A DNA stretch of 32,191 nucleotides from Thermoplasmata archaeon (GCA_023261755.1 JAGDXS010000023.1:1-32191), one strand, 5' to 3'. Shown: positions 6,724 through 31,198, counted from the stretch's first letter. Notes: generated by a model not told the origin, from the sequence alone. Numbers and translations: made by a program.

Positions 6724-8259
6724 ATGAAATTCAGAATTCAAAAATCGGATTATATAATTGGAAGAAGGACAGCATTCTTGAATATTTATGACGCAGAGGC
6801 GTTAGGTGTCAAGGAAAATTCAAGAATAATTGTTGATTTCGGTAATTATAACAGCATATTTTTTGTTTCATTATCAAAAAATCAGGTGAACAGGAGCGAA
6901 GTAATAATAACTGCAGATTTTTCAAATGAAATTAATGATGAATTCGTAAATATCATGCCAGCTCCCCCATTGAAGTCCGTAGATTCCATAAAGAGAAAAA
7001 TTTATGGTAAAAAATTATTGCAGGATGATTTTGAATCAATAATTAAGGATATTAATGATGAAAATCTTTCACAAATTGAATTATCAAGCTATGTTACATC
7101 GCTTCAAACTGTTGGTTTAGATGATGATGAGATTATTTATCTAATAAATTCAATGGTTTCACATGGGGAAAAGATAAATTTTGAATATGAAGTATACGAT
7201 GTACATAGTATTGGAGGAGTTCCTGGAAATAAATATGCATTAATAACTGTGCCAATACTTGCATCATTAGGTTTAAAAGTCCCGAAAACATCTTCAAAGG
7301 CTATAACAAGTGCAGCTGGTACTGCGGATGTGATGGAAGTACTTGCAAATGTGAACCTGAAGGCAGAGGAAATTAAAAAAATTGTAGATAATGTAGGAGC
7401 TACACTAACCTGGGGTGGATCTATTAATATAGCTCCAGCAGATGATAAAATAATCAAGGTGGAACAGCCTCTAGGAATTGACCCTATCCCCCAGTTAATT
7501 TCATCCGTATTATCAAAAAAAGTGGCTACTAGCATAAGATATCTTCTTATAGACATTCCAATGGGTAATGAAACGAAAGTCCAAGATGAACAATCTGCAA
7601 GATCACTTGCTGAAAAATTTATAAGGATAGGAAATAGAATTGGTCTCAAGATTGAATGCGCAATAACTTATGGAGGTCAGCCCTTGGGAAGAGCTATAGG
7701 TCCAGCAATTGAGGCGCAAGAGGCACTTAGGGCATTGGAGGGTAAGCAAACATCCAACAGTTTTATTGTAAAATCATTGGAAATTGCAGCATTGATGCTT
7801 GAGATATCAGGGATATCTGAAAGAGGTGAAGGCATAGAAATAGCTAGGGATACCCTCAGAAATGGCAAAGCTAGAGAAAAGTTCTTTGAAATAGTTAACG
7901 CTCAGGGAAGCAAGGGGATAGAAAAAAGTGAAGATATACAACTTGGGGAATTTACATATGATATTTTATCAGGATTTGATGGATATATTTCCTATTTGTC
8001 AAATAGATCTTTAGTTGAAATTGCTAGAATTTTAGGAGCACCGCATATAAAAGAAGCAGGATTATGGGTTTATAAGAAAATAGGTGATAAAGTAGAAAAA
8101 AATGAACCAGTCCTTCGCCTTTATTCAAAGAATAAGGAGAAATTGGAACAGGCAGTTAGGTTGTCAAGGAAAATAAAATTGTACAGCATAGAGGGCATGG
8201 TAATAGAAAATATACCAGATATAAAAAGGAGTAAAAGGATCTGGGAGGTAAAAGAATGA
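6724..8259 (+). CDS. AMP phosphorylase (archaeal thymidine-phosphorylase-like)
   Basis: 'DVHSIGGVPGNKYALITVPILASLGLKVPKTSSKAITSAAGTADVMEVL', 'GQPLGRAIGPAIEA'; ~511 aa with the N-terminal extension typical of archaeal AMP phosphorylases. Confidence 0.92.
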   Translation: MKFRIQKSDYIIGRRTAFLNIYDAEALGVKENSRIIVDFGNYNSIFFVSLSKNQVNRSEVIITADFSNEINDEFVNIMPAPPLKSVDSIKRKIYGKKLLQDDFESIIKDINDENLSQIELSSYVTSLQTVGLDDDEIIYLINSMVSHGEKINFEYEVYDVHSIGGVPGNKYALITVPILASLGLKVPKTSSKAITSAAGTADVMEVLANVNLKAEEIKKIVDNVGATLTWGGSINIAPADDKIIKVEQPLGIDPIPQLISSVLSKKVATSIRYLLIDIPMGNETKVQDEQSARSLAEKFIRIGNRIGLKIECAITYGGQPLGRAIGPAIEAQEALRALEGKQTSNSFIVKSLEIAALMLEISGISERGEGIEIARDTLRNGKAREKFFEIVNAQGSKGIEKSEDIQLGEFTYDILSGFDGYISYLSNRSLVEIARILGAPHIKEAGLWVYKKIGDKVEKNEPVLRLYSKNKEKLEQAVRLSRKIKLYSIEGMVIENIPDIKRSKRIWEVKE

Positions 8260-8492
8260 AACTGAAGATTCTATATTTTGGAATATTCAGGGACATTACT
8301 GGAAAAATAAACGAGACCATAGATTTCACTGGAAAAGATCTTGAAGATTTAAAAAAATATCTAAATGAAAAATATCCAAATATTGTAAATGAAAATTTTA
8401 TCGTTTCTATAAATTATAAATATGTCGATGGGAATGAAAAATTAAAAGAAAATGATGAAATAGCAATAATGTCCCCTGTAAGTGGAGGTTAA
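8256..8492 (+). CDS. MoaD/ThiS-family ubiquitin-like sulfur carrier (possible SAMP)
   Basis: ~78 aa, 'LKILYFGIFRDITGK...LKENDEIAIMSPVSGG' with C-terminal GG; ATGA overlap with the AMP phosphorylase gene. Confidence 0.88.
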   Translation: MKLKILYFGIFRDITGKINETIDFTGKDLEDLKKYLNEKYPNIVNENFIVSINYKYVDGNEKLKENDEIAIMSPVSGG

Positions 8493-8887
8493 TCTTCAAC
8501 GATTTCGTATTCATATGTTACCTTTGCACCAGATCTCTTGAACATAATGCTTGCTGAACAATATTTTTCCTGTGAAAGCTCTATGGCTTTAATGAGTTTC
8601 TCATTTTTTATTTTTCCCTTGGCTATATATTTAATTTTAACTTCAGTATAAACTCTGGGAGGCTCATCAGCTCTTGTGCCTTCCACTTCAACTTTTAATG
8701 CTGTAAGCGGTTCTTTCATTTTTCTTAATATATCAACCACATCAATTGCAGTACAACTACCCAAACCTACCAAAAGAAAATCCATAGCCGAAGGTGCTAT
8801 TATCCTTCCACCATCTATTGTTAAAGAATGTTTTCCATCAACTGTAGATATGAATTTATCCTCTTTTATCCAATCAATTTCTATTTT
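8489..8887 (-). CDS. OsmC family protein
   Basis: 'DGGRIIAPSAMDFLLVGLGSCTAIDVVDILRKMKEPLTALKVEVEGTRADEPPRVYTEVKIKYIAKG' with 'SQEKYCSASIMF' cysteine motif; likely start MKIEIDW. Confidence 0.88.
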   Translation of the reverse strand, partial: KIEIDWIKEDKFISTVDGKHSLTIDGGRIIAPSAMDFLLVGLGSCTAIDVVDILRKMKEPLTALKVEVEGTRADEPPRVYTEVKIKYIAKGKIKNEKLIKAIELSQEKYCSASIMFKRSGAKVTYEYEIVED

Positions 8888-9004
8888 CATTAAAACTTTC
8901 AAAAATCTGGGGTACAAAAATTTTCTGTTAATAAAATTGACAATTGTTCAATAGATAAAATTAATAACTTTAAATGGATTTACCATAAAAGGAGATGTGT
9001 TGTT

Positions 9005-10480
9005 ATGCCTGAGACCCTTATTTATAGATTAAATTTCAAAAGGGTACCAATAAAAAGAACCAAACCTGAAGAAAGGATTAAGGATTTTAAATCTCCCGTT
9101 ATACTTGGATACACAAAAGCAGAAGCTATGAGAGAAGCATCCAGATGCATGGGATGCGGTCTTTGTATACAGGGCTGTCCTGCAAGGCTTGATATACCAG
9201 GATATGTCCAAGCAATTGCTAGAGGAGAGTTTGAAAACAGTCTCAGGATCATTTTAAGGGATCTGCCATTCCCTGAAATTTGTGGTAATATTTGTACACA
9301 TAGGTGTGAAGATAATTGTGTTTATTCTGAACCTGTTGCAATAAGGCATCTAAAAAGATTTGTTGCTGAACAGTTCAAGGATTATGCCCCTGTAATTAAT
9401 CATAATAAAAAAGAAAGCACTGGAAAAAAAGTAGCAATTATAGGTTCAGGACCAGCAGGTCTCACAGTTGCTTACTATCTCTCTTTATATGGTGTTGATT
9501 GCACAGTTTATGAAGCATTACCAGTTCCGCTTGGAATGCTCAATGTTGGAATCCCTAAATATAGATTGGCGGCATCAGTTATTGAGAAAGAATACAACTT
9601 TGTAAAAAATGCTGGTGTCAAATTTTTATTTAATACTAAGGTTGGTGTAGATATACCTTTCAAAAAAATTTATGATGAATTTGATGCAGTATTTCTTGGC
9701 ATAGGCACCATGATGGGCAATATGACAGGAACTCCAGGCAGTGATGGTAAATACGTATACCATGCCCTTGATTTCTTAAGGATGGCAAATTTAGGAGAAA
9801 CAATTCCAATGGGGAAGAAAGTGGCAATAATTGGTGGTGGATTTACAGCAATGGATTCAGCTAGAACAGCTCTAAGGTTAGGTGCAGAAAAAGTTTATGT
9901 ATTGTACAGGAGAAGGGCAGAGGATAGGCCAAGCTATCCTAGTACAAATGCTGAAGAAGAGATGGAAGAAACAGTTGAAGAAGGTGTAGAATTCTGGTGG
10001 AAGATTACACCTATTGAATATGTTAAAGACAGCAATGGATTCATCAAAGGAATTAGATACTGGAAGAATGATATGGTACCAGATCCAAGGGGAGGTAGAT
10101 TAAAACCTGTACCAATAAAGGATGTTGAATTTTTTGTTGAAGTTGATACAATCATAGAAGCTACTGGACAGGTACCTAATCTTTCATTTATACCAAGTGA
10201 TATACTTCAAAATTTAAAAATGAAAGGTAATGAAATAATCGTTGATGAAAAGGGAAGGACTTCTATACCAAAAATATTTGCTGGTGGAGATGCTACAAAT
10301 GAAACTAAGGATTTCATTTCAGCTGTTGCAGACGGGAACAAAGCAGTAAAAGGCATTTTAGAATTTCTTAGAATAGATTTCTCAACAATGAGGAAGGTGG
10401 AATGTCTAAAGGTTTCGGAAGAAATGAAAGAAACTTTTGGTAAAGATGTAGTATGCGATGAATTCCTGAATGTCCAGTAA
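9005..10480 (+). CDS. glutamate synthase small-subunit-like NAD(P)H oxidoreductase (GltD/NfnL-like)
   Basis: 'CMGCGLCIQGCPARLDIPGYVQAIARGEF' Fe-S domain, 'KKVAIIGSGPAGLTVAYYLSLYG' FAD and 'KKVAIIGGGFTAMDSARTALRLGAEKVYVLYRR' NAD(P) Rossmann motifs. Confidence 0.92.
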   Translation: MPETLIYRLNFKRVPIKRTKPEERIKDFKSPVILGYTKAEAMREASRCMGCGLCIQGCPARLDIPGYVQAIARGEFENSLRIILRDLPFPEICGNICTHRCEDNCVYSEPVAIRHLKRFVAEQFKDYAPVINHNKKESTGKKVAIIGSGPAGLTVAYYLSLYGVDCTVYEALPVPLGMLNVGIPKYRLAASVIEKEYNFVKNAGVKFLFNTKVGVDIPFKKIYDEFDAVFLGIGTMMGNMTGTPGSDGKYVYHALDFLRMANLGETIPMGKKVAIIGGGFTAMDSARTALRLGAEKVYVLYRRRAEDRPSYPSTNAEEEMEETVEEGVEFWWKITPIEYVKDSNGFIKGIRYWKNDMVPDPRGGRLKPVPIKDVEFFVEVDTIIEATGQVPNLSFIPSDILQNLKMKGNEIIVDEKGRTSIPKIFAGGDATNETKDFISAVADGNKAVKGILEFLRIDFSTMRKVECLKVSEEMKETFGKDVVCDEFLNVQ

Positions 10481-10519
10481 AAAGAAAAAATAATATGTTT
10501 GTTTACGATATCTAGTTTA

Positions 10520-10894
10520 ATGGATGATCCAGCAAAAAAATACTTTAATTGTAACGATAAGGAGAGGGCTGTATTCGAGGCTGGCATTAAATTAGGTACT
10601 ATATATCATCAATTTGTAGGTACCCCATTCAATTCATCCAACATTACTGTTCTGGAAAAAGCAATAGAGGAGAGTGTAAAGGTTCAGCCATTCGTAAAAG
10701 GAATAAAGGTTAGAATAAATGCAGAAAGGATAAAAAAGGGTAAGGGATTATATAAATATCTTACACTTACCGGTGACATGCTCGATGTAGATCTTGTAAT
10801 AGAATATAACAATATAGAAGCATATTGTTCAATGAAATATATTGAAGAAATGAATTATCCTCTTATGTTTATAAGGGAAATAAGAGTGAAATAG
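10520..10894 (+). CDS. mptD: archaeal dihydroneopterin aldolase-like protein (MptD/DHNA family)
   Basis: 'DPAKKYFNCNDKERAVFEAGIKLGTIYHQFVGTPF' and overall length resemble the archaeal MptD family; track ORF starts at TTG 10499, the ATG at 10520 is more plausible. Confidence 0.72.
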   Translation: MDDPAKKYFNCNDKERAVFEAGIKLGTIYHQFVGTPFNSSNITVLEKAIEESVKVQPFVKGIKVRINAERIKKGKGLYKYLTLTGDMLDVDLVIEYNNIEAYCSMKYIEEMNYPLMFIREIRVK

Positions 10895-10896
10895 TT

Positions 10897-11430
10897 ATGT
10901 ATGTTAAAATAGGTATAAGCGGATTACCGGGTGTTGGAAAAACAACAACCCTGTTAAAAACAATAGAACTATTAGAAAAAGAATTTACAGTGGGAGGAAT
11001 AATTACTGAGGAGGTTTTGGATGGCAAGGATAGAATAGGTTTTACCATTATGGATTGGGCAACAAAGGAAAAAGCAATGTTTGCATCCAAAAATTTTCAA
11101 TCTAGATACAGGGTAGGTAAATATGGCATAGATACAAAAATCCTGGATGATTTAGGTGTACGTGCACTTGAGTCAGCCAAGGAAAAAGACATAATTATAA
11201 TTGATGAAATAGGAAAAATGGAATTAGAATCTAAAAAATTGAGCGAAAAAATAAAGGAAATACTTGACATGGAAAAAAATATTATTATGACATTGAATAA
11301 GAAATCAAGAAATCCAATACTTCAAGATATAAGAAGAATGGATGATGTGAGAATTTTAGAGGTGACGCCAATAAATAGAAATATTCTTCCATTCAAAATT
11401 TTGAGCATTATAAAAGGTGAACAGATCTGA
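10897..11430 (+). CDS. THEP1-like nucleoside-triphosphatase
   Basis: 'VKIGISGLPGVGKTTTLLKTIELL' Walker A; 'GGIITEEV...DRIGFTIMDW' and 'DIIIIDEIGKMEL' Walker B, typical of THEP1 NTPases. Confidence 0.9.
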   Translation: MYVKIGISGLPGVGKTTTLLKTIELLEKEFTVGGIITEEVLDGKDRIGFTIMDWATKEKAMFASKNFQSRYRVGKYGIDTKILDDLGVRALESAKEKDIIIIDEIGKMELESKKLSEKIKEILDMEKNIIMTLNKKSRNPILQDIRRMDDVRILEVTPINRNILPFKILSIIKGEQI

Positions 11431-12478
11431 ATTTAAAATGATTATCAGGGAAGGTTTAATAGAATTAGAATTAAATTCAATAGCGAAGGGGAATGGGCCT
11501 GGAAGAAAGGCGCCTGGATATTATTCCCAAGCTATGGTAATATCACGTGATCTAACAATATCTGTTCTTAAAAACTATTTTTATGGAAGTTTTAAGGCTC
11601 TTGATATGCTTGGTGGCTCTGGTATACGTGGTTTAAGAATTGAAAAGGAATGCAAAGCAGAAGTAACAATAAATGATAACAACCCTAAGGCATTGGAAAT
11701 TATAAAAAGGAATAGGGAATTAAATTTTTCTAAGGCTAGGATAACATCATTAGATGCTTCAAGATGCATAGAAAATTTCTATGATTATATAGATATAGAT
11801 CCATACGGGTCGCCAGTACCATTTTTAGACCCAGCATTGAAATCAATAAAAAAGTATGGTCTAATTGGAGTTACGGCAACTGATCTCCCCAATCTAACTG
11901 GCACGAATTTTAAGAAAGGTATAGAACTTTATCATTCAAAGATAATTAGAAATTATTACAGTCATGAATCGGGTTTAAGAGCTCTGATTTCATTCATAAT
12001 AAAAAGGTCAGCTGAATACGAATTGGCTCTAAGACCAATACTATCATTCTATGGCGGATATTATTACAGAATATTTTTTAAGGTAGAAAAAGGATCTAAA
12101 AAATTGGAAAAAAATTTAGATTATATTCAATCACTTAATTATCTATCAAGAAATAAAGAACTTGGTCCTATATGGATAGGCAATATCCATGATACAAATT
12201 TCATTAAGAACTTGATAATAGAAGATTATATGCAGAATTCAGAAAAAATTAAAAAATATAAAGAAATATTTTTAAATGAAAATATTTTATTTTTCTATTC
12301 TCTTGAAGAATTATCAAAGAAATTTAAGAGAAACATACCTAAAATTGATGAATTTATTAGTTATTTAAAGGATTTGGGTTATAGTGCATCTAGAACACAA
12401 TTTTCAAATATAGGTATTAAAACAAATGCATCTTTCGTTACATTAAGAAAAATTTTTAATGAAAGATTTATAAAGTAA
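11417..12478 (+). CDS. trm1: tRNA (guanine26-N2)-dimethyltransferase Trm1
   Basis: 'REGLIELEL', 'FKALDMLGGSGIRGLRIEKE', 'YDYIDIDPYGSPVPFLDPALKSIKKYGLIGVTATD'; start either GTG 11417 or ATG 11438. Confidence 0.92.
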   Translation: MNRSEFKMIIREGLIELELNSIAKGNGPGRKAPGYYSQAMVISRDLTISVLKNYFYGSFKALDMLGGSGIRGLRIEKECKAEVTINDNNPKALEIIKRNRELNFSKARITSLDASRCIENFYDYIDIDPYGSPVPFLDPALKSIKKYGLIGVTATDLPNLTGTNFKKGIELYHSKIIRNYYSHESGLRALISFIIKRSAEYELALRPILSFYGGYYYRIFFKVEKGSKKLEKNLDYIQSLNYLSRNKELGPIWIGNIHDTNFIKNLIIEDYMQNSEKIKKYKEIFLNENILFFYSLEELSKKFKRNIPKIDEFISYLKDLGYSASRTQFSNIGIKTNASFVTLRKIFNERFIK

Positions 12479-16604: not shown

Positions 16605-19600
16605 ATGGTGAAAATACATATGCGTATGAGCTTAAGTGAGGAAAGGAAAAGAGATTTAACAGTACTGATATTGATGGTATCAATAGTTCTTCTAGGTCTA
16701 TTTTTAAGGACTTATTATGTAGCGATACCATCAATACAGAATGGTTTTGCAGTTTCGGGTGGATCGGATTCATATTACCATGAAAGAGTAATTGATTACA
16801 TTGTTGCAACTGGGCATCAGCTCATACGCGATCCAATGCTTAATTATCCTATAGGAATGAACGATCCAAGGCCACCGATATTTGAGTGGTCTGTAGTTGC
16901 GATGGCATACTTGTTCCTACCCTTTGTAGGAAGTATGTCAAATGCAATTGGATATTCTCTAATAATGATTTCAGCAATATTCGGCGCTCTAATAGCAATA
17001 CCCATGTACCTTATGGGCAAGGAGGCATTCAATAGGAAGGTTGGAATTATTTCAGCATTCTTGATTGCAACAAGTGCAGCAAACATGATGCGAAGTGTAG
17101 CATCATGGGGTGGATATGATGTTACAATACTTTTCTTCGCTGTATGGACATGGTATTTCCTTCTTAAGGCATTAAAGAGTATAAATCGTAGTGTTTGGGT
17201 AGAAAATTATTTAAGTTTGTCCAGCTGGAAAAAAGGTACAAAGAAATTTTTCAGCGAAAATAAAAAAGCTGTTGTATATTCAGCCTTATCTGGTATAAGT
17301 TTGGCCACCGTAACATTAATGTGGCAGGGATTCGCTTATGTAGAAGCAATAGTATTAATTTATTTAGTAATTCAGGTATTTTATAATAGGTTTAAAAATG
17401 TATCATCATTCCATATCTTATGGATAACTGTGATCATAGGACTTTTCACATACCCAATTTCAATACCATATTATCATGCAGATGTAACTAATATATTTAC
17501 TAATTCATATTTTGCAACTCCACTTTATCTTATGCTGTTCACAATAATATTGATTCTTTTCATAGAATTCACATCTAAATTACCATGGACATTTACATAC
17601 TCATTAGCTGCAATTTTCATTGCAGCGATAGTTCTCATAGGTTATTTCTTCGTACCATCCATAATGACTTATATTTACACAGGTGAGGGTTATTTTGTAA
17701 AATCACCAATATATTCAACTATAGCTGAAGCTCAAGCCCCTTCACTTGGAGAAGTAATAATGAATGTCGGTGTAGGATTATTTTTCATATTTGTAGCGGG
17801 CTTTGTTTACATGATTTATGAAATGAGAAAGAATAGGGGCGAATATTATCTATTCTTCATTATTTTCTCCGTTGTATCTGTATATATGGCATTTTCAGCT
17901 GCAAGGTTCATTTATGAAGCATCGCCAGCATTCATTTTCCCTGCAGCATATATGCTGGATTTAATAATAACCAAATTGAATCTTAAGGAAATTTCTCAGA
18001 CCTTAAGATCATTTACATTTTCTTGGAGGGTAGCCCTTAAAAAAGGATTAAAATGGACTAAGATAGTTGCAATAATTTTGATTGCATTTTTCATAATTCT
18101 ACCAAATATGTGGGGGGCTGTAGATTCAGCAATTCCTTATAATACTAAAAATACATACGATCAACAAATTTATAATGTAATGCCTCAGATATTTAGGCCA
18201 CAAAATTACACGCCTCCATGGTATTTAGGTGCATACGGTGTAGAACTTGACACAAACCAGACAGACCCATGGATATCTGCTTTGAACTGGTTAAGTACAC
18301 AGGATACAAATTTGCCACCATCACAGCGTCCTGCTTTCCTATCTTGGTGGGACTATGGATTTCAAGAAATTGAACAGGGAAAGCATCCTGCAGTTGCTGA
18401 TAACTTCCAGAATGGTTATCAAATAGCTGGTCAATTCATTACAGCCCAAAACGAAAGCCAAGCCATATCATTGTTAATAGCAAGATTGTTGGATAGCTCC
18501 TTATTTAATTCAACATATGGGCCACAGGTAAAACAGGCACTGATACAATACCTAGGAATAAATGAAACAGATAAAATAATATCATATTACACAAATCTAT
18601 CCAAAGATCCCAAGCCATACATAGAGGAAGTACTTAGCGATCCATCATACTATGGAAATTACTCAACTGACTTGCTTTCAGAATTAAACGTATCACCAGG
18701 TTTCTCTATTCCAAATACAAGGTACATAATGATTAAGGCAGATTTATCAAATAAATATCCAGAAAATGTTTTAGTGAATTTATACGATGATATAGAATCT
18801 ATTACTGGATTGGGCATAGGATATTTTGCAACTGATTATAGGCTATTTCCATTCTCAGGAACTGACACTGGCATATTCTATGCACCTGCATACCTTTCTG
18901 GAAGGGTAGTAGAAAATGTTAATGGAGAAGTAATTCCTACTGATTTCTATACAATTGAGGCCGTAGCATCTGATGGCACGACCTATCCAATAAATGAAAC
19001 ACCACCAAATGCTCAAATAGTTAATTATCAAATTACTTATAAACAAATGTTCTTCGATTCCATGCTTTACAGGGCATTTGTAGGATATTCAGGTTTAAAT
19101 CTAGGAATTGGCCCATATATTCCTGGCTTGACTTCCAATATGTCCTATTATCCAATAATGCCAGCATGGAATTTAACACATTTCGAGGTTGTATATTCAA
19201 TCTCTTTCTGGAATCCCTATAAAGATTACCAAAATCATTCAAAGGCATGGAAAGTAGTACCTTTGCAGGAAGCATATTATTTGCAGAAGACAAACAATGG
19301 CACTGTAGTTTTAATGCCCCCTGCAAATGATACCTTGCCTCAGGATGTTGTAATAATAAAATATTATCCTGGAGCCATAATTCAGGGAAGGGTTTTATTA
19401 TCAAATGGTCAGCCCATGGACCATGTTCTAGTTACTCTTTATGATCAATACGGTATACCACATGACTACAATTATACAAATTCAACTGGTTATTATACAT
19501 TGTATGGTGTTGCTGGGAATGATACAATTGAAGTATCCACAAATGGAGGATTTAATAAATTATATTTGAGTGAAAATACAATTCTTTCTTCTAAGCAAAT

Positions 19601-22600
19601 ATATATTAGTAATGATCAGGCATTGAGGATAACAACATCATTCTATCCTAATGGCACTCCTAATTATTATATATTCCAGAATTTTGTTGTAAATGCTAGT
19701 TCACTTGACGGCGTTGCCTATTACCAAGAAGGAACAAACTCAACATATACTGCTGGAGAACCAGTTCTGAGTCACGTTAAACTTTATCTTGAAAATAATA
19801 CTTATGGTCTAAATTATACAACAATTGTTTCAAGCTCAGGTTATTATAAATTTTCAGATGTTCAGCCGCATACTTATAACATATATGCAAAAATTAATGG
19901 AACATTAGTTTATGTCATGAATGTAACTTTAAATGCTGGAATTAATATCACAAGAGACATTGCATTGAAACCTGATATAGTGAAAGGTGTTGTCATACTA
20001 CCGAACGGTGAACCTGCAATATATGCTAATGTTTATCTAATGAATAATGAAACTCTTACAACTGAAACAAACATTTTAGGTGCTTATATATTTTACGTTC
20101 CTCCTGGAAATTATACATTAAAGGTCTCTTATCCTGGATATTTTGCTCAGGAAAGGTTGATACATATTAGTTCTTGGAATGTTTCATCAACTGAAAATAT
20201 ACAATTGGAAAATGCATATGATTTAACAGGTACCGTTCTTGTAAATGGTAAACCTGCTTCGAATGCATTTGTTAAATTTACAGATGAATTCAACTCCACA
20301 GATACAGAAACTGTAATGACAAACTCGAATGGAGAATTTTCTTTACCATTATTGCAAAATTATTATTCTATTTACATTAATTATTTTGCAAATAATTCAA
20401 ATTATATTTACTTTGGAAATTATACACCAAATGGAAATTCATCCATGATTTTCAACCTGGAAAAGGCAGTATCAATTAGTGGCTTTGTAAAATACAAGAA
20501 GACAAATATTGGAGATGCTGAAATAATGCTGTTCTCAGGTCAAAATTTCATTAGGTCATATTCAAACAATTCAGGTTTTTACATGGTATATGTTACACCA
20601 GGGATTTATAATATTGGTGTCTTAGGATACAATGGATCAGCATCAATACCTTATGGATATTATTCACAAATAATAATCAATGGCAATTTATCCATGAATA
20701 TATATTTGAAAAATACAACAGAAATTAGTGGAACAGTTATGTATAACAATAATATAATAAAAGATAGTTTAGTTTTCTTAACGGGCCCATCTGGAATATT
20801 TTATGAAACGAATATATCATTCAATGGACGTTTCAATTTATTTACTACATTTAAAGATTACAATATATCTGCATGCATATATGGTTATGAGATGAAAACT
20901 TTACAAAACTATAACGGTAGTATTACAATAAATGTGATACCACAGAATATTAGCCTCCAGGGTAGCGTAACTTATAATCACATTTATAAGGGGCCTATTT
21001 ACCTAGAATTTTACAATTCTAATTATAATAAAAAAGTACAGGTTATAAATGGAAAATATGAGGTAGTATTACAGCCAGGTACATACAATGTTACAGCATT
21101 AACAGAATATTCCTACAGTAAAATACATCCAGATATTGCATACATAAATGTTGGTATTCTAAACCAAACTTATAATTTCCTAATAAATATTAACGCCACT
21201 GTATCATTGGTTCCTTTCGTTAAAAACATATACTGGTTCAATGAGAATGGAACATTGGTTAATTCTGGAAACAATGTTACATTGCCCGTTGGAAATTATA
21301 CTGTATATGCATATGAAGGAAACAAAGCACAAATATTGGGTATATCTGTTGCAAACAATAGCATTTACTCTCTTGATTTACAACAGGCATTCAACATAAG
21401 GGTAAACATAATAAATTATACAGGTGAAATAAATCTCACAATTATTAATTACAATATGAAAATAACAAAGCCTGTAAGTTCTTACGCGAATATATTATTA
21501 CCATATGGTTACTATAAGTTTTATGCAAATAAGAGAATTGCAAATCAATTCGCCTATTATGGAGAAAATTCAACTTATGTTTATGGAAATTCTAGCCTGA
21601 GCATTCATGTAAAGAAAATTCAATATATTTCATACATTTATGGATATGTTGAATATAACGAGCAACCTCTTTCATTTGCAACTATAAATATATTTGGAAA
21701 TAACAATAATTATGTAATTTCTTCAAATGCAAATGGATTTTATTCAATTTCCCTACCAGCTGGTGAATACACTTTATACGCATATTACATTTCAGCAGGA
21801 CAGTACTCCTATATAGGTAATTTAACAGTACCAGGCAATGGTTCTATGGAAAAGGATTTAAATCTTGTTGTTAGTTATAGGGCAAGTATTTTATTTACAG
21901 CTGGAAATACCACATATAGTGGATATTTCAATATAACCAATTCCCAAGTAAGTATGCAATTTTTCACACCAAATGGATTTTATTCAATAATATTGCCATC
22001 AGGGAATTACACATTCTATGCTAACACTACAGTCAAGGAATATGGTATGAGTGTAAATTATGTAATGAATAGGACATTCTATATATCATCAAATACATAT
22101 ATAAATGCTATATTTTATAGAATTAATGTAGATAAAATAGAAATGAAAACAATAACGCCTACAATTACCGCACAGGTTGGAGAGAATTTAACATATAACA
22201 TAAGTGTAAGCAATGTTGGAAACAGACCAGAAAATGTTTCAGTAGAGGCTGTCGGTGTATGGAACGTTTCATTTTCTGAAAGGTACTTAAAACTGATGCC
22301 TGGAGAAACAAAATATATAACTGCATATGTAATTGTTTCAGATAAAGCAAGTTTAGGTTTGAATTCCATTTCTATTAGGGGAATTTACAGGACCTCTATG
22401 ATTGCAGAAACACACATAGATGTTAATGTAACAACTTATCACAATGTATCATTCCAGTGGGGAAATCCATACATCATAGGAAAGAATTTATTTGTGAATC
22501 TTACAATCATTAACCATGGAAATGTTGTTGAAAACTTCACAAATCTTTATTTGAACTATTTGCAATTGAAATCCCTTGGATGGAACTATACAATACTCTA

Positions 22601-22919
22601 TCATAATAAGAATGCCACTCAAGTTCCAGTTTACACCTGGTCAAATTCAAATATAACAATAGAGCTAAGTCCAACTAAATATAATTCAGCAGAAGTATTT
22701 CCTGTAATATTTTCAGGTATGTCATATGGAATGGAATATACTACGAATAAAGAAATACACATTCCGCAGTTAAATGAATTAAAAACAAACATTCAGGCAG
22801 GAAATATTTCTTATGTTCTACCATCAACTTCAGCTCTGGTACTTGAGCTTATTGTAGCTACAATAGTAGTAGCATTTGCAATATTGCTATATGTTGCATT
22901 AACAAGGGTGAGAAAATGA
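16605..22919 (+). CDS. aglB: STT3/AglB oligosaccharyltransferase with giant C-terminal modular extension (2104 aa)
   Basis: Multi-TM N-terminus; 'GGSDSYYHERVIDYIV' acidic motif, 'TIAE' (TIxE-type) loop motif, 'SWWDYGFQEIEQGKHPAVADNFQNGYQ' WWDYG catalytic motif; then ~11 divergent carboxypeptidase-regulatory-like modules, a CARDB/NEW3-like region and a C-terminal TM helix. Exact start uncertain (Met at 16605 or nearby). Confidence 0.93.
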   Translation: MVKIHMRMSLSEERKRDLTVLILMVSIVLLGLFLRTYYVAIPSIQNGFAVSGGSDSYYHERVIDYIVATGHQLIRDPMLNYPIGMNDPRPPIFEWSVVAMAYLFLPFVGSMSNAIGYSLIMISAIFGALIAIPMYLMGKEAFNRKVGIISAFLIATSAANMMRSVASWGGYDVTILFFAVWTWYFLLKALKSINRSVWVENYLSLSSWKKGTKKFFSENKKAVVYSALSGISLATVTLMWQGFAYVEAIVLIYLVIQVFYNRFKNVSSFHILWITVIIGLFTYPISIPYYHADVTNIFTNSYFATPLYLMLFTIILILFIEFTSKLPWTFTYSLAAIFIAAIVLIGYFFVPSIMTYIYTGEGYFVKSPIYSTIAEAQAPSLGEVIMNVGVGLFFIFVAGFVYMIYEMRKNRGEYYLFFIIFSVVSVYMAFSAARFIYEASPAFIFPAAYMLDLIITKLNLKEISQTLRSFTFSWRVALKKGLKWTKIVAIILIAFFIILPNMWGAVDSAIPYNTKNTYDQQIYNVMPQIFRPQNYTPPWYLGAYGVELDTNQTDPWISALNWLSTQDTNLPPSQRPAFLSWWDYGFQEIEQGKHPAVADNFQNGYQIAGQFITAQNESQAISLLIARLLDSSLFNSTYGPQVKQALIQYLGINETDKIISYYTNLSKDPKPYIEEVLSDPSYYGNYSTDLLSELNVSPGFSIPNTRYIMIKADLSNKYPENVLVNLYDDIESITGLGIGYFATDYRLFPFSGTDTGIFYAPAYLSGRVVENVNGEVIPTDFYTIEAVASDGTTYPINETPPNAQIVNYQITYKQMFFDSMLYRAFVGYSGLNLGIGPYIPGLTSNMSYYPIMPAWNLTHFEVVYSISFWNPYKDYQNHSKAWKVVPLQEAYYLQKTNNGTVVLMPPANDTLPQDVVIIKYYPGAIIQGRVLLSNGQPMDHVLVTLYDQYGIPHDYNYTNSTGYYTLYGVAGNDTIEVSTNGGFNKLYLSENTILSSKQIYISNDQALRITTSFYPNGTPNYYIFQNFVVNASSLDGVAYYQEGTNSTYTAGEPVLSHVKLYLENNTYGLNYTTIVSSSGYYKFSDVQPHTYNIYAKINGTLVYVMNVTLNAGINITRDIALKPDIVKGVVILPNGEPAIYANVYLMNNETLTTETNILGAYIFYVPPGNYTLKVSYPGYFAQERLIHISSWNVSSTENIQLENAYDLTGTVLVNGKPASNAFVKFTDEFNSTDTETVMTNSNGEFSLPLLQNYYSIYINYFANNSNYIYFGNYTPNGNSSMIFNLEKAVSISGFVKYKKTNIGDAEIMLFSGQNFIRSYSNNSGFYMVYVTPGIYNIGVLGYNGSASIPYGYYSQIIINGNLSMNIYLKNTTEISGTVMYNNNIIKDSLVFLTGPSGIFYETNISFNGRFNLFTTFKDYNISACIYGYEMKTLQNYNGSITINVIPQNISLQGSVTYNHIYKGPIYLEFYNSNYNKKVQVINGKYEVVLQPGTYNVTALTEYSYSKIHPDIAYINVGILNQTYNFLININATVSLVPFVKNIYWFNENGTLVNSGNNVTLPVGNYTVYAYEGNKAQILGISVANNSIYSLDLQQAFNIRVNIINYTGEINLTIINYNMKITKPVSSYANILLPYGYYKFYANKRIANQFAYYGENSTYVYGNSSLSIHVKKIQYISYIYGYVEYNEQPLSFATINIFGNNNNYVISSNANGFYSISLPAGEYTLYAYYISAGQYSYIGNLTVPGNGSMEKDLNLVVSYRASILFTAGNTTYSGYFNITNSQVSMQFFTPNGFYSIILPSGNYTFYANTTVKEYGMSVNYVMNRTFYISSNTYINAIFYRINVDKIEMKTITPTITAQVGENLTYNISVSNVGNRPENVSVEAVGVWNVSFSERYLKLMPGETKYITAYVIVSDKASLGLNSISIRGIYRTSMIAETHIDVNVTTYHNVSFQWGNPYIIGKNLFVNLTIINHGNVVENFTNLYLNYLQLKSLGWNYTILYHNKNATQVPVYTWSNSNITIELSPTKYNSAEVFPVIFSGMSYGMEYTTNKEIHIPQLNELKTNIQAGNISYVLPSTSALVLELIVATIVVAFAILLYVALTRVRK

Positions 22920-23671
22920 AAATCAAGAGTTTAATTTTAATTTCTCTCATTATATTTTCATTGACTATTCCACTAAGCCAGGCAAGGCCAGTATCAGTAA
23001 ATATAACAGGTCCAACAACAGTAGGAATCAATGATACATATGAATATAAAATAGTTGTATCAGGGTTTTTTGAAGAATATGGTTTTCATCTATTCCTCTC
23101 TGGAAATAATCTAACAGGCGCGACTAAAAATGAGCTATATGGCTATTCATTTAATACGAATATATTCTACGCTAATGTAACATTCCCATCTGTTCCTGAA
23201 GTAGTCTACATTTATGTTCTCGGAATTGGCATAAATAATGGTAGCAATCCAGTCTCAACAATATCTTACATAAAAGTTAATGTAATAAAATCAACGCCCA
23301 TATCAGTGGAAATAAAAAATCCATCCCAATATAAAGTGAGCAATGTAACAGTTACATTCTTCTTGAATGGAAAATACATAGGCACATCCAACATAAGTTC
23401 AATTAATCCCAACGGTACTGCAAGCGCAACCTTATATTATGTGGGCAGTTTTGTACAGGGTGTGAATGTTATTTCAGTAAGAATTAATTCACAGGTACTT
23501 AAATTTTCGAATGGTTCAAATGTTACAAGCATATATTTTAATTATGGTCCATTACCTAATTATACCTGGGTCTGGTATACATTTGCAGGCATAGCCATAG
23601 TGATAATTTTCTTCGTCCTAATGTTTAGGTCAAGCAGAAAAACAACAAACATACCAAAATGGAAAAGGTAA
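22916..23671 (+). CDS. secreted, C-terminally membrane-anchored surface protein
   Basis: N-terminal signal peptide 'MKIKSLILISLIIFSLTIPLSQA', multiple N-x-S/T sequons, C-terminal TM 'WYTFAGIAIVIIFFVLMF' with basic tail; ATGA overlap with aglB. Confidence 0.8.
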   Translation: MKIKSLILISLIIFSLTIPLSQARPVSVNITGPTTVGINDTYEYKIVVSGFFEEYGFHLFLSGNNLTGATKNELYGYSFNTNIFYANVTFPSVPEVVYIYVLGIGINNGSNPVSTISYIKVNVIKSTPISVEIKNPSQYKVSNVTVTFFLNGKYIGTSNISSINPNGTASATLYYVGSFVQGVNVISVRINSQVLKFSNGSNVTSIYFNYGPLPNYTWVWYTFAGIAIVIIFFVLMFRSSRKTTNIPKWKR

Positions 23672-23674
23672 AAA

Positions 23675-24382
23675 TTATTTTTTTTGAATTTTTATTGCAT
23701 TTTCAATATCCATTTCCCCACTTAATACTTTAATAGCTAATTTTTTAGATATTGTAATTTCGTTGTTGCTTAATAATCTACTTCTTCTTTGAACTTCTGA
23801 TATCTCTCCATTTTTAAATCTCCTATACATTCTCTTATTTATTAATTCTCCCTTTTTCATTGCAATTTTCCTTGCAGCTTCAATATTCCTATTTTTTATA
23901 GGAGATGTTTTTGTTTCATCCACAAGTTCAATATCAAAATATCCTAGAATATCATTTATTATTCTATTTCTATCAGGGATATCCCCCATACCAATTCTTA
24001 TTAGAAATTTATTGGGTGAATAATCGTTTTTTACAGAATTAAGAATGTTTTTCACATTTTTTAAATCGTTCAATTCAAATTCTTCAAGCGTAACACCATC
24101 ACCCATGATTACAATGCCCGTTCTAAGGCCAGGATCTATACCTACAACAATTTCTTGAAATCTCTCCTTTCCATAATTATAACTTAATGCTCTTCTTAAG
24201 GATCTTTTTATATCATCTATTATTATTTCTTTTGGAAAATTTCTTGGTTTATCCGTCAAAACAACAGAAACTTTTTCAGATGAATCCTGATGCAGATCAT
24301 AAAATCCTATATTTCTCTTTTTTAATTCATTTACAAGCTGAAAATATATTTTGAAATTTTCAACGTAAATACCTATTTTCAT
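23675..24382 (-). CDS. RNase H-fold (RuvC/YqgF/DUF460-like) protein
   Basis: 'EIVVGIDPGLRTGIVIMGDGVTLEEF' RuvC-like first strand with Asp; 'VDETKTSP' and 'NRNIEAARKIAMKKGE' at expected later positions. Confidence 0.6.
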   Translation of the reverse strand: MKIGIYVENFKIYFQLVNELKKRNIGFYDLHQDSSEKVSVVLTDKPRNFPKEIIIDDIKRSLRRALSYNYGKERFQEIVVGIDPGLRTGIVIMGDGVTLEEFELNDLKNVKNILNSVKNDYSPNKFLIRIGMGDIPDRNRIINDILGYFDIELVDETKTSPIKNRNIEAARKIAMKKGELINKRMYRRFKNGEISEVQRRSRLLSNNEITISKKLAIKVLSGEMDIENAIKIQKK

Positions 24383-28192: not shown

Positions 28193-31100
28193 TTGAGATC
28201 AATTAATGCAAAAAGTGCAATGGCTTTAGTGATTATTTCAGTGTTCCTAGTGAGCTCTATGTTTGTTCCTTTGGAGTCCAGTGCTCAAAGTATAAAAACT
28301 GGGAATGTGAATATTGGAGTGATGTATTATGATACAGTTACACATGAAGTGGATTATATTAGCGGATTGACAGTTAACTTAATAGATTATTCTGGGCATG
28401 TTATATCATCCCAGGTTTCAAATCCAATAGTTACATTTACAAATGTTCAGATAGGGAATTATATACTCCAAATAACACCACAGAAGATTGGTAATTATGC
28501 ATATAGCTTTGATTATACTCCAATAAAAGTTACTACAGCAGGTGCCAATATAACAAATGTAGTTGTCCAAAGGACACCAATAAATCAAAATGTTAATTTA
28601 ACAATTATGAATAAGGGAGCTCCTTTGGTGGGGGTACAAGTAAGTGCTTACACATTATATAATTTAGAGATATTTTCAGGATATACAGGTTCCAAGGGGA
28701 ATATAACATTCAATGCAACACCAGGATCATTTATACTTGTAATTACCAATAATAATGGTGGTGCGATCAAAAATTATTATACGAATATAAATGCGCCATA
28801 TGCAGGATCAGTGGATTTATCCAACTTTTACCACATATTTGGTATGGTTAAGGATAATACCACTGGAACGCTTGTAAGTTCCACAGTAAGGATAAGCATA
28901 TTCAATGATCAGGGTCTCTGGGATGTTCTAAATTTCAATAACGGAATCTTTGATTTCTATATTTATGGTGGTCCTTACACAATTTATCTTACTGCAGATG
29001 GTTATTCAATAACTAGTATACCCTACCAGTCAGGTTATTATGTTATCTCCCTCGGAAAGACTTATAACTATTATCAATACAATTATGGATTTTCATCAGA
29101 TTTCAAATACCTTTACATGAATGAAACGTTCTACTTAAACAATAAAACAACATTTCAGTCTCTACCATATTCTTCAATGACAATTCTTTACTACCAATTA
29201 CTTTTCAATAATATGAATCAGTATTCACTTCAACAATTTTTCCTAAATTCATTGCCAATATATTCAAACAATTTAGTGACATTATCAAATTATACTTATT
29301 CACTTAGGGGCTCATCAATAAGTGCAATATCAATGAATTATAATGGATTTTATGTTAAAATTACATCAGAATATTACAATGCATCAGTAAATTCATCCAA
29401 CATTTTATCAGAAAATGGATACATACCCATATATCTTCATGTTGAGCAAAACAATGTATATGGTGCCCAGAATATTTATAATTATAGTGTATCAATACCA
29501 AGCAATTATGAACTATCAAATACTGTTACAGGCGCTTCAGAGACAGGATACATAAATAATTTAAAAATAACAAATGCTACACAATCTTCAATAGAATTGG
29601 ATCTTAAAGTGAGAAAAGCCCCTGAAATAGTTTTGGGTTCAAGCACTTTCATAATGTACTGGCATGGAATGACACCAGGTAATTATATACTCAATGATAG
29701 CGCAAGCAATTTTACAGTTGTTGTACCAGCAAATAAAGAAATATCATATAACGTAAGTCTTGCTGTTAAGGACATGGTTAGAAATCAATATTCCTGGACT
29801 CAGATGACATTTAACTGGACATTTGACGGAACGTTAGTTTCAAGCGGCATTGGAGATGCAAATGTATCTTATTCTTTAAATCCAGGAATACACAAGCTTA
29901 ATCTACAGGTAACAGATGTTGGAAATAATGTTAACAGTACGACAATAACCATATACTCAGATGGGGCATATCCAGCAAGCTATACGTATATAAGTTATTT
30001 AACAAGCCCGGATAAATACATAATCTCATGGAATGTTTACACAAACAATAGTGCCTATTATGTTTATAATGGAACTGGTACTTCTGTGGCTGTATTAAAC
30101 AATAAGGTAGTTTTTGGTCAAATAACTGTGGATGAGAACAAGGAAATAACTTTAAATGTTAAATCAATTACTGATACAATAAATGGAGTAGTTCCATCAC
30201 ATGAGACAACAACTGTAATTTGGCATATTAATAATACAAAATATGTAGGTTTAAGTGTTAATTATACATTCAGTTACCCTACCAGAAATACAAATGACTG
30301 GATAAATGTAACATATATGGATCAGGTAGGCAATAATATTACCGTTTCAATTCCAGTATTTGTTAAGGATACATTAAAACCAGTACCTGTTATAATATTC
30401 CAGAATTCTACAAATGCAACCGTTTCACAAATATATGAGAATCAAACAATTAAGTTGAATGGAACGAATTCATATGATCCCCAGAATGGTCAGATAGTTT
30501 TATACAATTGGACAATTAAAAGTTCTTCAGGTAAGGTACTTTCAATAAATTCAACAAATTTCACTGTTATATCAGGATCATTGACTAGCAGTGTAGTCAC
30601 TTTAAAATTCAATGCATATGGAACATATACCATTTTATTGAACGTATCTGACAGGTCAGGAAATTATAATACAACATCAAGGACATTAAATGTAGTACCA
30701 GTTGCACCAGATTTATTACTTAACAATGTAACATGGCATGGAAATTTAACAGCTGGCTCATCAACAACATTTTATGTAAATGTGACAAACACAGGTAATG
30801 CTCCTGCAACAAAATACTATCTTGAATTGTATGTGAATGGCAAAGAGGTTTCAAATGTAACATATTACAATCTTGCTGTAAATAAAACTGTAAAACTTTT
30901 TATATCTTGGACACCATCTTCTTCAGGTAACTTTACACTGAAATTTGAAGCATATACACCTCAGGAACCTACAATGTATCTTGGAGACAATGTTCAAACT
31001 AAAGTAGTATCAGTTCAAGAAGCAGGCTGGGTATTACCAGTTACAATTTTGGGCATAATACTTGTAATAGTTGTCTTAGCATTCATTGGATGGAGAATAA

Positions 31101-31198
31101 AGAAGGGCGGATCAACGGTCACTAAGAAACAGAAGCCTCAGGAAAAAGAACAACAAAAGAAGAGCAGTGGATTACTACATAAAAAAGAAGAAAAATAA
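28193..31198 (+). CDS. large secreted, membrane-anchored surface (S-layer-like) glycoprotein candidate
   Basis: TTG start preceded by GGAGGG; signal peptide 'AMALVIISVFLVSSMFVPLESSAQS', many sequons, PKD-like ('LNGTNSYDPQNGQIVLYNWTI') and CARDB-like ('PDLLLNNVTWHGNLTAGSSTTFYVNVTNTGNAPA') domains, C-terminal TM and Lys-rich tail. Confidence 0.82.
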   Translation: MRSINAKSAMALVIISVFLVSSMFVPLESSAQSIKTGNVNIGVMYYDTVTHEVDYISGLTVNLIDYSGHVISSQVSNPIVTFTNVQIGNYILQITPQKIGNYAYSFDYTPIKVTTAGANITNVVVQRTPINQNVNLTIMNKGAPLVGVQVSAYTLYNLEIFSGYTGSKGNITFNATPGSFILVITNNNGGAIKNYYTNINAPYAGSVDLSNFYHIFGMVKDNTTGTLVSSTVRISIFNDQGLWDVLNFNNGIFDFYIYGGPYTIYLTADGYSITSIPYQSGYYVISLGKTYNYYQYNYGFSSDFKYLYMNETFYLNNKTTFQSLPYSSMTILYYQLLFNNMNQYSLQQFFLNSLPIYSNNLVTLSNYTYSLRGSSISAISMNYNGFYVKITSEYYNASVNSSNILSENGYIPIYLHVEQNNVYGAQNIYNYSVSIPSNYELSNTVTGASETGYINNLKITNATQSSIELDLKVRKAPEIVLGSSTFIMYWHGMTPGNYILNDSASNFTVVVPANKEISYNVSLAVKDMVRNQYSWTQMTFNWTFDGTLVSSGIGDANVSYSLNPGIHKLNLQVTDVGNNVNSTTITIYSDGAYPASYTYISYLTSPDKYIISWNVYTNNSAYYVYNGTGTSVAVLNNKVVFGQITVDENKEITLNVKSITDTINGVVPSHETTTVIWHINNTKYVGLSVNYTFSYPTRNTNDWINVTYMDQVGNNITVSIPVFVKDTLKPVPVIIFQNSTNATVSQIYENQTIKLNGTNSYDPQNGQIVLYNWTIKSSSGKVLSINSTNFTVISGSLTSSVVTLKFNAYGTYTILLNVSDRSGNYNTTSRTLNVVPVAPDLLLNNVTWHGNLTAGSSTTFYVNVTNTGNAPATKYYLELYVNGKEVSNVTYYNLAVNKTVKLFISWTPSSSGNFTLKFEAYTPQEPTMYLGDNVQTKVVSVQEAGWVLPVTILGIILVIVVLAFIGWRIKKGGSTVTKKQKPQEKEQQKKSSGLLHKKEEK

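Follow-up and report, generated by a model that had tools for sequence, protein, structure and literature searches.

Sequence and setting of the long AglB

The aglB gene studied here raises the question of why an archaeal oligosaccharyltransferase (OST) should continue for ~1185 amino acids beyond its YYxGA motif, and what such an extension does. The window, that is, the whole stretch of 32,191 nucleotides that was analyzed, is a 32.2-kb contig from a host genome of 1.22 Mb. The nearest named relatives are all uncultured Thermoplasmata (Cuniculiplasma sp. KMA_Bin18, Euryarchaeota MV2.Eury.2014, Aciduliprofundum sp. ARK-15, and KMA_Bin14). When the ORFs of the window were read, aglB formed one intact frame of 2104 codons with the following layout:

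16605..22919, + strand: aglB, 2104 aa (STT3 core, 13-domain extension, and C-terminal transmembrane [TM] helix)
16605..18119, + strand: STT3 transmembrane core, residues 1-505, with GGSD at 52-55, GYD at 170-172, and TIAE at 372-375
18120..19346, + strand: catalytic globular domain, residues 506-914, with WWDYG at 581-585 (18345-18359)

Judged by core homology and motifs, the protein is an STT3/AglB-family OST. In a profile search of the genome, PF02516 (STT3) passed on aglB with 48.8 bits (cut-off, 24.5). The NCBIfam model TIGR04154 (archaeo_STT3) matched the protein with an E value of 4e-63, yet under its curated cut-off, and the AglB_core-like match in Pfam was weak. Residues 18 to 506 aligned with Archaeoglobus fulgidus AglB (E = 3e-34, profile search). 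WWDYG is invariant in 62 of 62 aligned proteins of the class and absent from one family, f11. The TIxE motif on EL5, TIAE in the window AglB, reads T-I/V-x-E in all 62 class sequences outside f11. The sequence-only reading of this DNA had placed a core with both motifs in one ORF with the extension, and the located motifs and the unbroken frame bear this out. As for the DxD-type motifs, EL1 carries GGSD, and EL2 carries GYD, not DHD, in the window AglB and its close relatives. This second DxD position (17112-17120) is DHD or DWD in most other relatives and RMH, RAH, LFD, or NYL in several other acidophile-type ones; WWDYG and TIxE are intact in the latter, as they are in the window AglB.

The start of aglB is ambiguous (window 16605-16628): GGTGA stands ahead of residues 6 and 8, both encoded by ATG, and translation may begin there. 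The setting looks like normal chromosome because the two ORFs upstream read, from their translations, as exosome RNase PH-like subunits.

A string of 13 beta-sandwich domains is predicted to lead back to the membrane

Beyond the catalytic domain, the same chain continues as an arm with three parts:

19368..22085, + strand: 11 transthyretin/CarboxypepD_reg-like beta-sandwiches, residues ~922-1827, module 1 starting after YYPGAIIQG
22095..22760, + strand: two larger Ig/CARDB-NEW3-like domains, residues ~1831-2052, with an NxGN motif in each
22827..22910, + strand: C-terminal TM helix, a second membrane anchor, residues 2075-2102

In Pfam, PF13620 (CarboxypepD_reg) matched the arm in five stretches (130.9 bits against a cut-off of 32.3; E = 2e-38), and four of the five matches of this model in the host genome lie in aglB, to which it is thus almost confined. 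We modeled residues 905 to 2104 with AlphaFold2, using an alignment with 48 relatives. The result was an all-beta string (mean pLDDT, 87.4; pTM, 0.44) in which the single domains are well predicted and their relative arrangement is not. Its strand pattern gives 11 transthyretin-like modules, two Ig-like domains, a disordered linker, and the helix at 2075 to 2102. The sequence-only reading, which had counted about 11 repeats followed by a CARDB/NEW3 region and a terminal TM helix, was accurate here. A whole-chain Foldseek search with the arm returned generic Ig-string matches only.

Hydropathy and the model are consistent with a tail that lies outside the cell and returns through the C-terminal helix, which is followed by positive residues. 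This predicted topology, together with the domain string, supports the earlier description of a large, modular, doubly membrane-anchored OST ectodomain. The first module adjoins the YYxGAxxxG motif, and modules 1 and 2, next to the catalytic domain, are the most conserved part of the tail. Among the sampled outgroup AglBs, only the shortest, that of L139 (930 aa), failed to match the module 1 profile; even AglBs whose tails span just 270 to 310 aa matched it.

The long AglB is the norm in the class Thermoplasmata

Such length had been implied to be rare among Thermoplasmata. In a survey of 400 genomes of the class, however, most STT3-bearing ORFs among those listed were ~2040 to 2440 aa long; the shorter ones mostly came from fragmented genomes or bordered a contig end. 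On these sequence data, the window AglB is an ordinary AglB of its class with a lineage-specific architecture. With the window protein as the query, all 30 of 30 chosen genomes gave matches, mostly reaching well into the extension, and the whole-protein query also recovered aglB in genomes where a search with only the STT3 Pfam model had missed it. Homologues of the same length are colinear throughout, with 54% identity over residues 7 to 2104 in a congener and 34% over residues 20 to 2100 in another family. An assembly or frame error joining two genes, a possibility that the sequence-only reading had raised itself, has a negligible probability and is ruled out by colinear ORFs of equal length, which recur in many families and in many genomes independent of one another, several of them single-contig.

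In an alignment of 62 full-length proteins, every tail segment was covered at 96 to 99%; identity to the window AglB was 36 to 45% in the core versus 16 to 25% beyond the first module. The core tree held a class clade of 30 rows (SH-aLRT, 100), and L047 grouped outside it. The distance from WWDYG to the end of the protein was 1470 to 1610 aa in all rows of the clade but one, L147. In this single genus, AglB (7520-11845, - strand) is 1442 aa long and the middle of the tail is gone; modules 1 to 3, the last Ig domain, and the TM helix are retained.

Other Thermoplasmatota AglBs bear tails of differing lengths. The proteins are ~3000 to 3300 aa in f46/f52; 2300 to 2750 aa in f38-f40, f42, and f53; 1400 aa in f41 and f45; and 1120 to 1300 aa in f36, f37, f55, f56, and f58. 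In L132, L133, and L148 (f46/f52; AglB of 3100 to 3250 aa), WWDYG lies ~350 residues further from the N terminus than in the window protein. A subtilase (PF00082) gene follows aglB directly in L132 and L133, and an ORF of the same size stands there in L148.

A partner gene follows aglB throughout the class

Immediately downstream of aglB lies a co-conserved gene that the sequence-only reading had missed:

22906..22912, + strand: GGGTGAG, Shine-Dalgarno-like as read from the sequence, within the 3' end of aglB and ahead of the start codon of the partner
22916..23671, + strand: partner gene, 251 aa (signal peptide, two Ig-like domains of which the second is CARDB-like, TM helix 217-239, and a basic tail ending in PKWKR)

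The partner start and the aglB stop share four bases (ATGA). Of the class loci whose flanks were long enough, 57 of 57 had a gene matching the partner profile directly downstream of aglB, with an overlap of exactly four bases in 34 of them, and the profile matched 199 of 201 class genomes. The next commonest neighbor family within 4 kb was found in only 20 of 40 loci. A convergent gene in the window (23675-24382, - strand) has apparent relatives, starting MK.GIY..NF, that make up that neighbor family. At an E value of 1e-15, almost all matches of the partner profile fall within the class. Beyond the class, f39 has the partner gene beside aglB, and the few remaining matches lie mostly within larger ORFs elsewhere; in the other sampled lineages, unrelated genes (subtilase, AMMECR1, and aminotransferase) follow aglB.

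The AlphaFold2 model of the partner (pLDDT, 92.5) has a generic Ig fold, with Ig-string matches only in Foldseek. PF07705 (CARDB) matched 49 of 52 partner orthologues at an E value of 0.01 (best, 4.2e-16); the window partner itself scored 22.0 bits, just below the cut-off of 22.7. The layout is the same as that of the arm end: extracytoplasmic beta domains, then a TM helix with positive residues after it. We rejected the PKWKK/PKWKR tail as a universal signature of the partner, since 17 of 52 orthologues end in this way and the others have different basic tails. In hhalign, the C termini of the L140, L142, L143, and L150 AglBs resembled the partner CARDB domain (92 to 96%), partly with the TM helix. 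CARDB is so common that we regard this "Rosetta stone" fusion evidence as merely suggestive.

The partner is co-encoded with aglB and probably cotranslated. It could be a second subunit, in an enzyme described hitherto as having only one, and it may bind AglB physically, although operon pairing alone is no proof of binding. The sequence-only reading had allowed that the extension might be typical of all Thermoplasmata AglBs and already described. Typical of the class it is; within the open-access literature, we found no description of the long AglB, its partner, or the motif-less family treated below. The partner gene and that family are apparently two unreported features.

Sequon richness varies over a conserved arm

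The sequence-only reading offered an autoglycosylated acid shield as one function of the extension. We compared N-x-S/T sequon counts with those expected from composition-preserving shuffles. Residues 915 to 2060 of the arm hold 55 sequons, in line with the "roughly fifty" first counted by hand, versus 23.1 expected (z = 7.7). An excess is also found in the AglB globular domain (z = 5.4), the partner (z = 3.5), and a surface protein encoded at 28193-31198 (z = 4.2); in the remaining window proteins it is small or nil. That surface protein, of 1001 aa, has CARDB and PKD-like domains, two hydrophobic segments, and 39 sequons (22 expected).

Across 62 relatives, sequon density was negatively correlated with GC content (r = -0.68), and tail sequons ranged from 78 (z = 8.2) down to 5 to 9 (z ~ 0) at nearly constant tail length. 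L082, L090, L092, and L102 have a near-zero excess on a full-length arm and ~2 to 3 times as many acidic residues. Single sequon positions are mostly poorly conserved. Sequon richness seems to be a trait of particular lineages at large, superimposed on a structure that is itself conserved.

The arm of the window AglB is probably glycosylated, as its sequons suggest. A main role as a coat of sugars that protects against acid would fit its own excess and the strong excess in other sequon-rich members of the class, but the other extracytoplasmic segments of the window show a like excess, the excess nearly vanishes in the four relatives above at the same tail length, and most single sequons vary in position. 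Because all extracytoplasmic window proteins share the excess and some relatives with an arm of this length lack it, we consider a shield or glycocalyx very improbable as its primary function. What stands of the overall interpretation in the sequence-only reading is the architecture of the ectodomain and its probable glycosylation, and a scaffold or substrate-presenting role may yet apply; its unusualness and a primary role as an acid shield find no support.

One family keeps arm and partner around a motif-less core

In f11, AglB lacks both WWDYG and TIxE in 22 of 22 genomes, and the acidic residues of EL1 and EL2 are mostly lost too. The members are the following:

L051, L151-L155, L157-L158, L160-L167, and L174-L179: f11 genomes, apparent pseudo-OST

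All 18 members tested carry mcrA, and we infer that f11 corresponds to Methanomethylophilaceae. No second substantial STT3-like match was found in the 19 f11 genomes searched with TIGR04154. The long tail is nevertheless kept in 22 of 22 AglBs (total length, 1808 to 2544 aa), and the partner gene lies directly downstream in 22 of 22. The motif replacements vary between members, which suggests that catalysis is less constrained, not that a new motif is shared. If so, the arm and partner would have a role beyond aiding sugar transfer, and the family offers a natural experiment on the accessory parts of AglB without it.

This family bears on two other explanations. The arm and partner might bind particular surface proteins and present them to the active site and have no other role. 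Modules 1 and 2, the best-conserved part of the tail and adjacent to the catalytic domain, favor this, and accessory subunits of the eukaryotic OST serve such substrate-selection roles. However, tail and partner persist in all 22 genomes without WWDYG and TIxE, and unless that core is active by means of other residues, we think it quite unlikely that substrate selection is all they do.

The main rival of the reading that we favor is an envelope scaffold: arm and partner would be chiefly a cell surface structure (a spacer, an anchor, or part of an unordered layer), fused to the OST only for anchoring and giving no aid to glycosylation. Their persistence where the catalytic motifs are lost agrees with this idea. 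The surface layer of Thermoplasmatales is dense and unordered and consists of an unidentified glycoprotein (PMC12448462); the arms could contribute to it. Against a scaffold, in all class members sampled the arm remains joined to an STT3 core, degenerate cores included, and its conservation extends to methanogens and halophile-like members with other envelopes. We regard the scaffold as somewhat unlikely.

A candidate membrane-tethered platform

The reading that we favor, and to which we give about even credence, is that arm and partner are a membrane-tethered platform built onto the OST. In this reading, the catalytic domain of the STT3 core would face the cell exterior, and from it the arm of 13 beta-sandwiches would run back to the membrane, entering it at the C-terminal helix. 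Stationed where proteins leave the membrane, such a platform, structural or secretory in nature, may keep the enzyme beside exported chains or the surface protein layer. Such a role would resemble that of the non-catalytic subunits of the eukaryotic OST and would be partly independent of sugar transfer; any effect on glycosylation, and any link to SecY or the ribosome, would be conjectural.

Several observations argue for a platform. The tail is colinear and near constant in length across the class despite its low identity, aglB and the partner are paired, and L147, which has lost the middle of its tail, retains both ends and the partner gene. The arm is kept in sequon-poor lineages, arm and partner are kept in f11, and NOMO2 is matched by the AglB profile. 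Against it, AglBs outside the class have a tail and no partner gene (except in f39), the Ig fold of the partner is generic, and the arrangement of the arm domains is unpredicted.

More tentatively, Thermoplasmata may possess a two-component OST, with a 13-domain arm and a dedicated partner forming an export-site platform as an archaeal counterpart of the eukaryotic non-catalytic subunits. Its function would be separable from glycosylation because a methanogen family keeps the assembly around an apparently catalytically dead STT3. A conserved second gene and a membrane-returning arm across a class would mean that N-glycosylation has accessory machinery in archaea too, and aglB and its partner are a specific candidate complex to purify from a culturable species.

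Comparison with known systems

Modular surface adhesins of the CNA-B/SdrD type (PDB 6fwv and 10ps) share the module fold of the arm (profile E values, 3.5e-8 and 1.8e-4). Unlike theirs, the arm modules belong to the same chain as an OST core; that chain is predicted to return to the membrane, and its length is near constant class-wide.

Ribophorin I, OST48, and TRAP alpha, which are found with STT3, are built of beta domains outside the cytoplasm followed by a single TM helix at the C terminus. The partner is analogous to these non-catalytic OST/TRAP subunits in layout, but there is no match at the family level: ribophorin, OST48, and TRAP families were absent from the Pfam matches of 52 partner orthologues and from the listed Foldseek PDB matches of the partner.

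The best non-OST match of the full-length AglB profile was NOMO2 (E = 8.7e-27). NOMO (PDB 9c7v, chain B), part of the BOS complex of the ER multipass translocon, is, like the arm, a string of transthyretin-like modules. Unlike the arm, it is a separate eukaryotic protein with no STT3 fusion, and the likeness, a comparison of how the two may work and not of membership, may reflect the shared module type. NOMO domain models stayed below cut-off on the window AglB (NOMO_5th, 13.4 bits versus 27). A search of the host genome with PF09767 (TMEM147, a partner of NOMO in that complex) gave no match, but no control matched either.

Archaeoglobus fulgidus AglB-L (PDB 3waj/5gmy/7e9s) has the STT3 TM core, TIxE, and WWDYG in common with the window AglB. 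A possible homology between its last domain and module 1 is a lead only; hhalign against one fragment paired VVIIKYYPGAIIQGRV with VKIFERVKGAVVTGKV at negligible probability. The A. fulgidus enzyme ends at 868 aa (PMC8342417), with no arm, no second membrane anchor, and no partner gene in its single-subunit description. The literature treats archaeal AglB as an enzyme of one subunit (PMC2952790, Table 1; PMC8342417). From such OSTs, which are ~800 to 1050 aa long without a long C-terminal extension, the window AglB departs with its 2104 residues.
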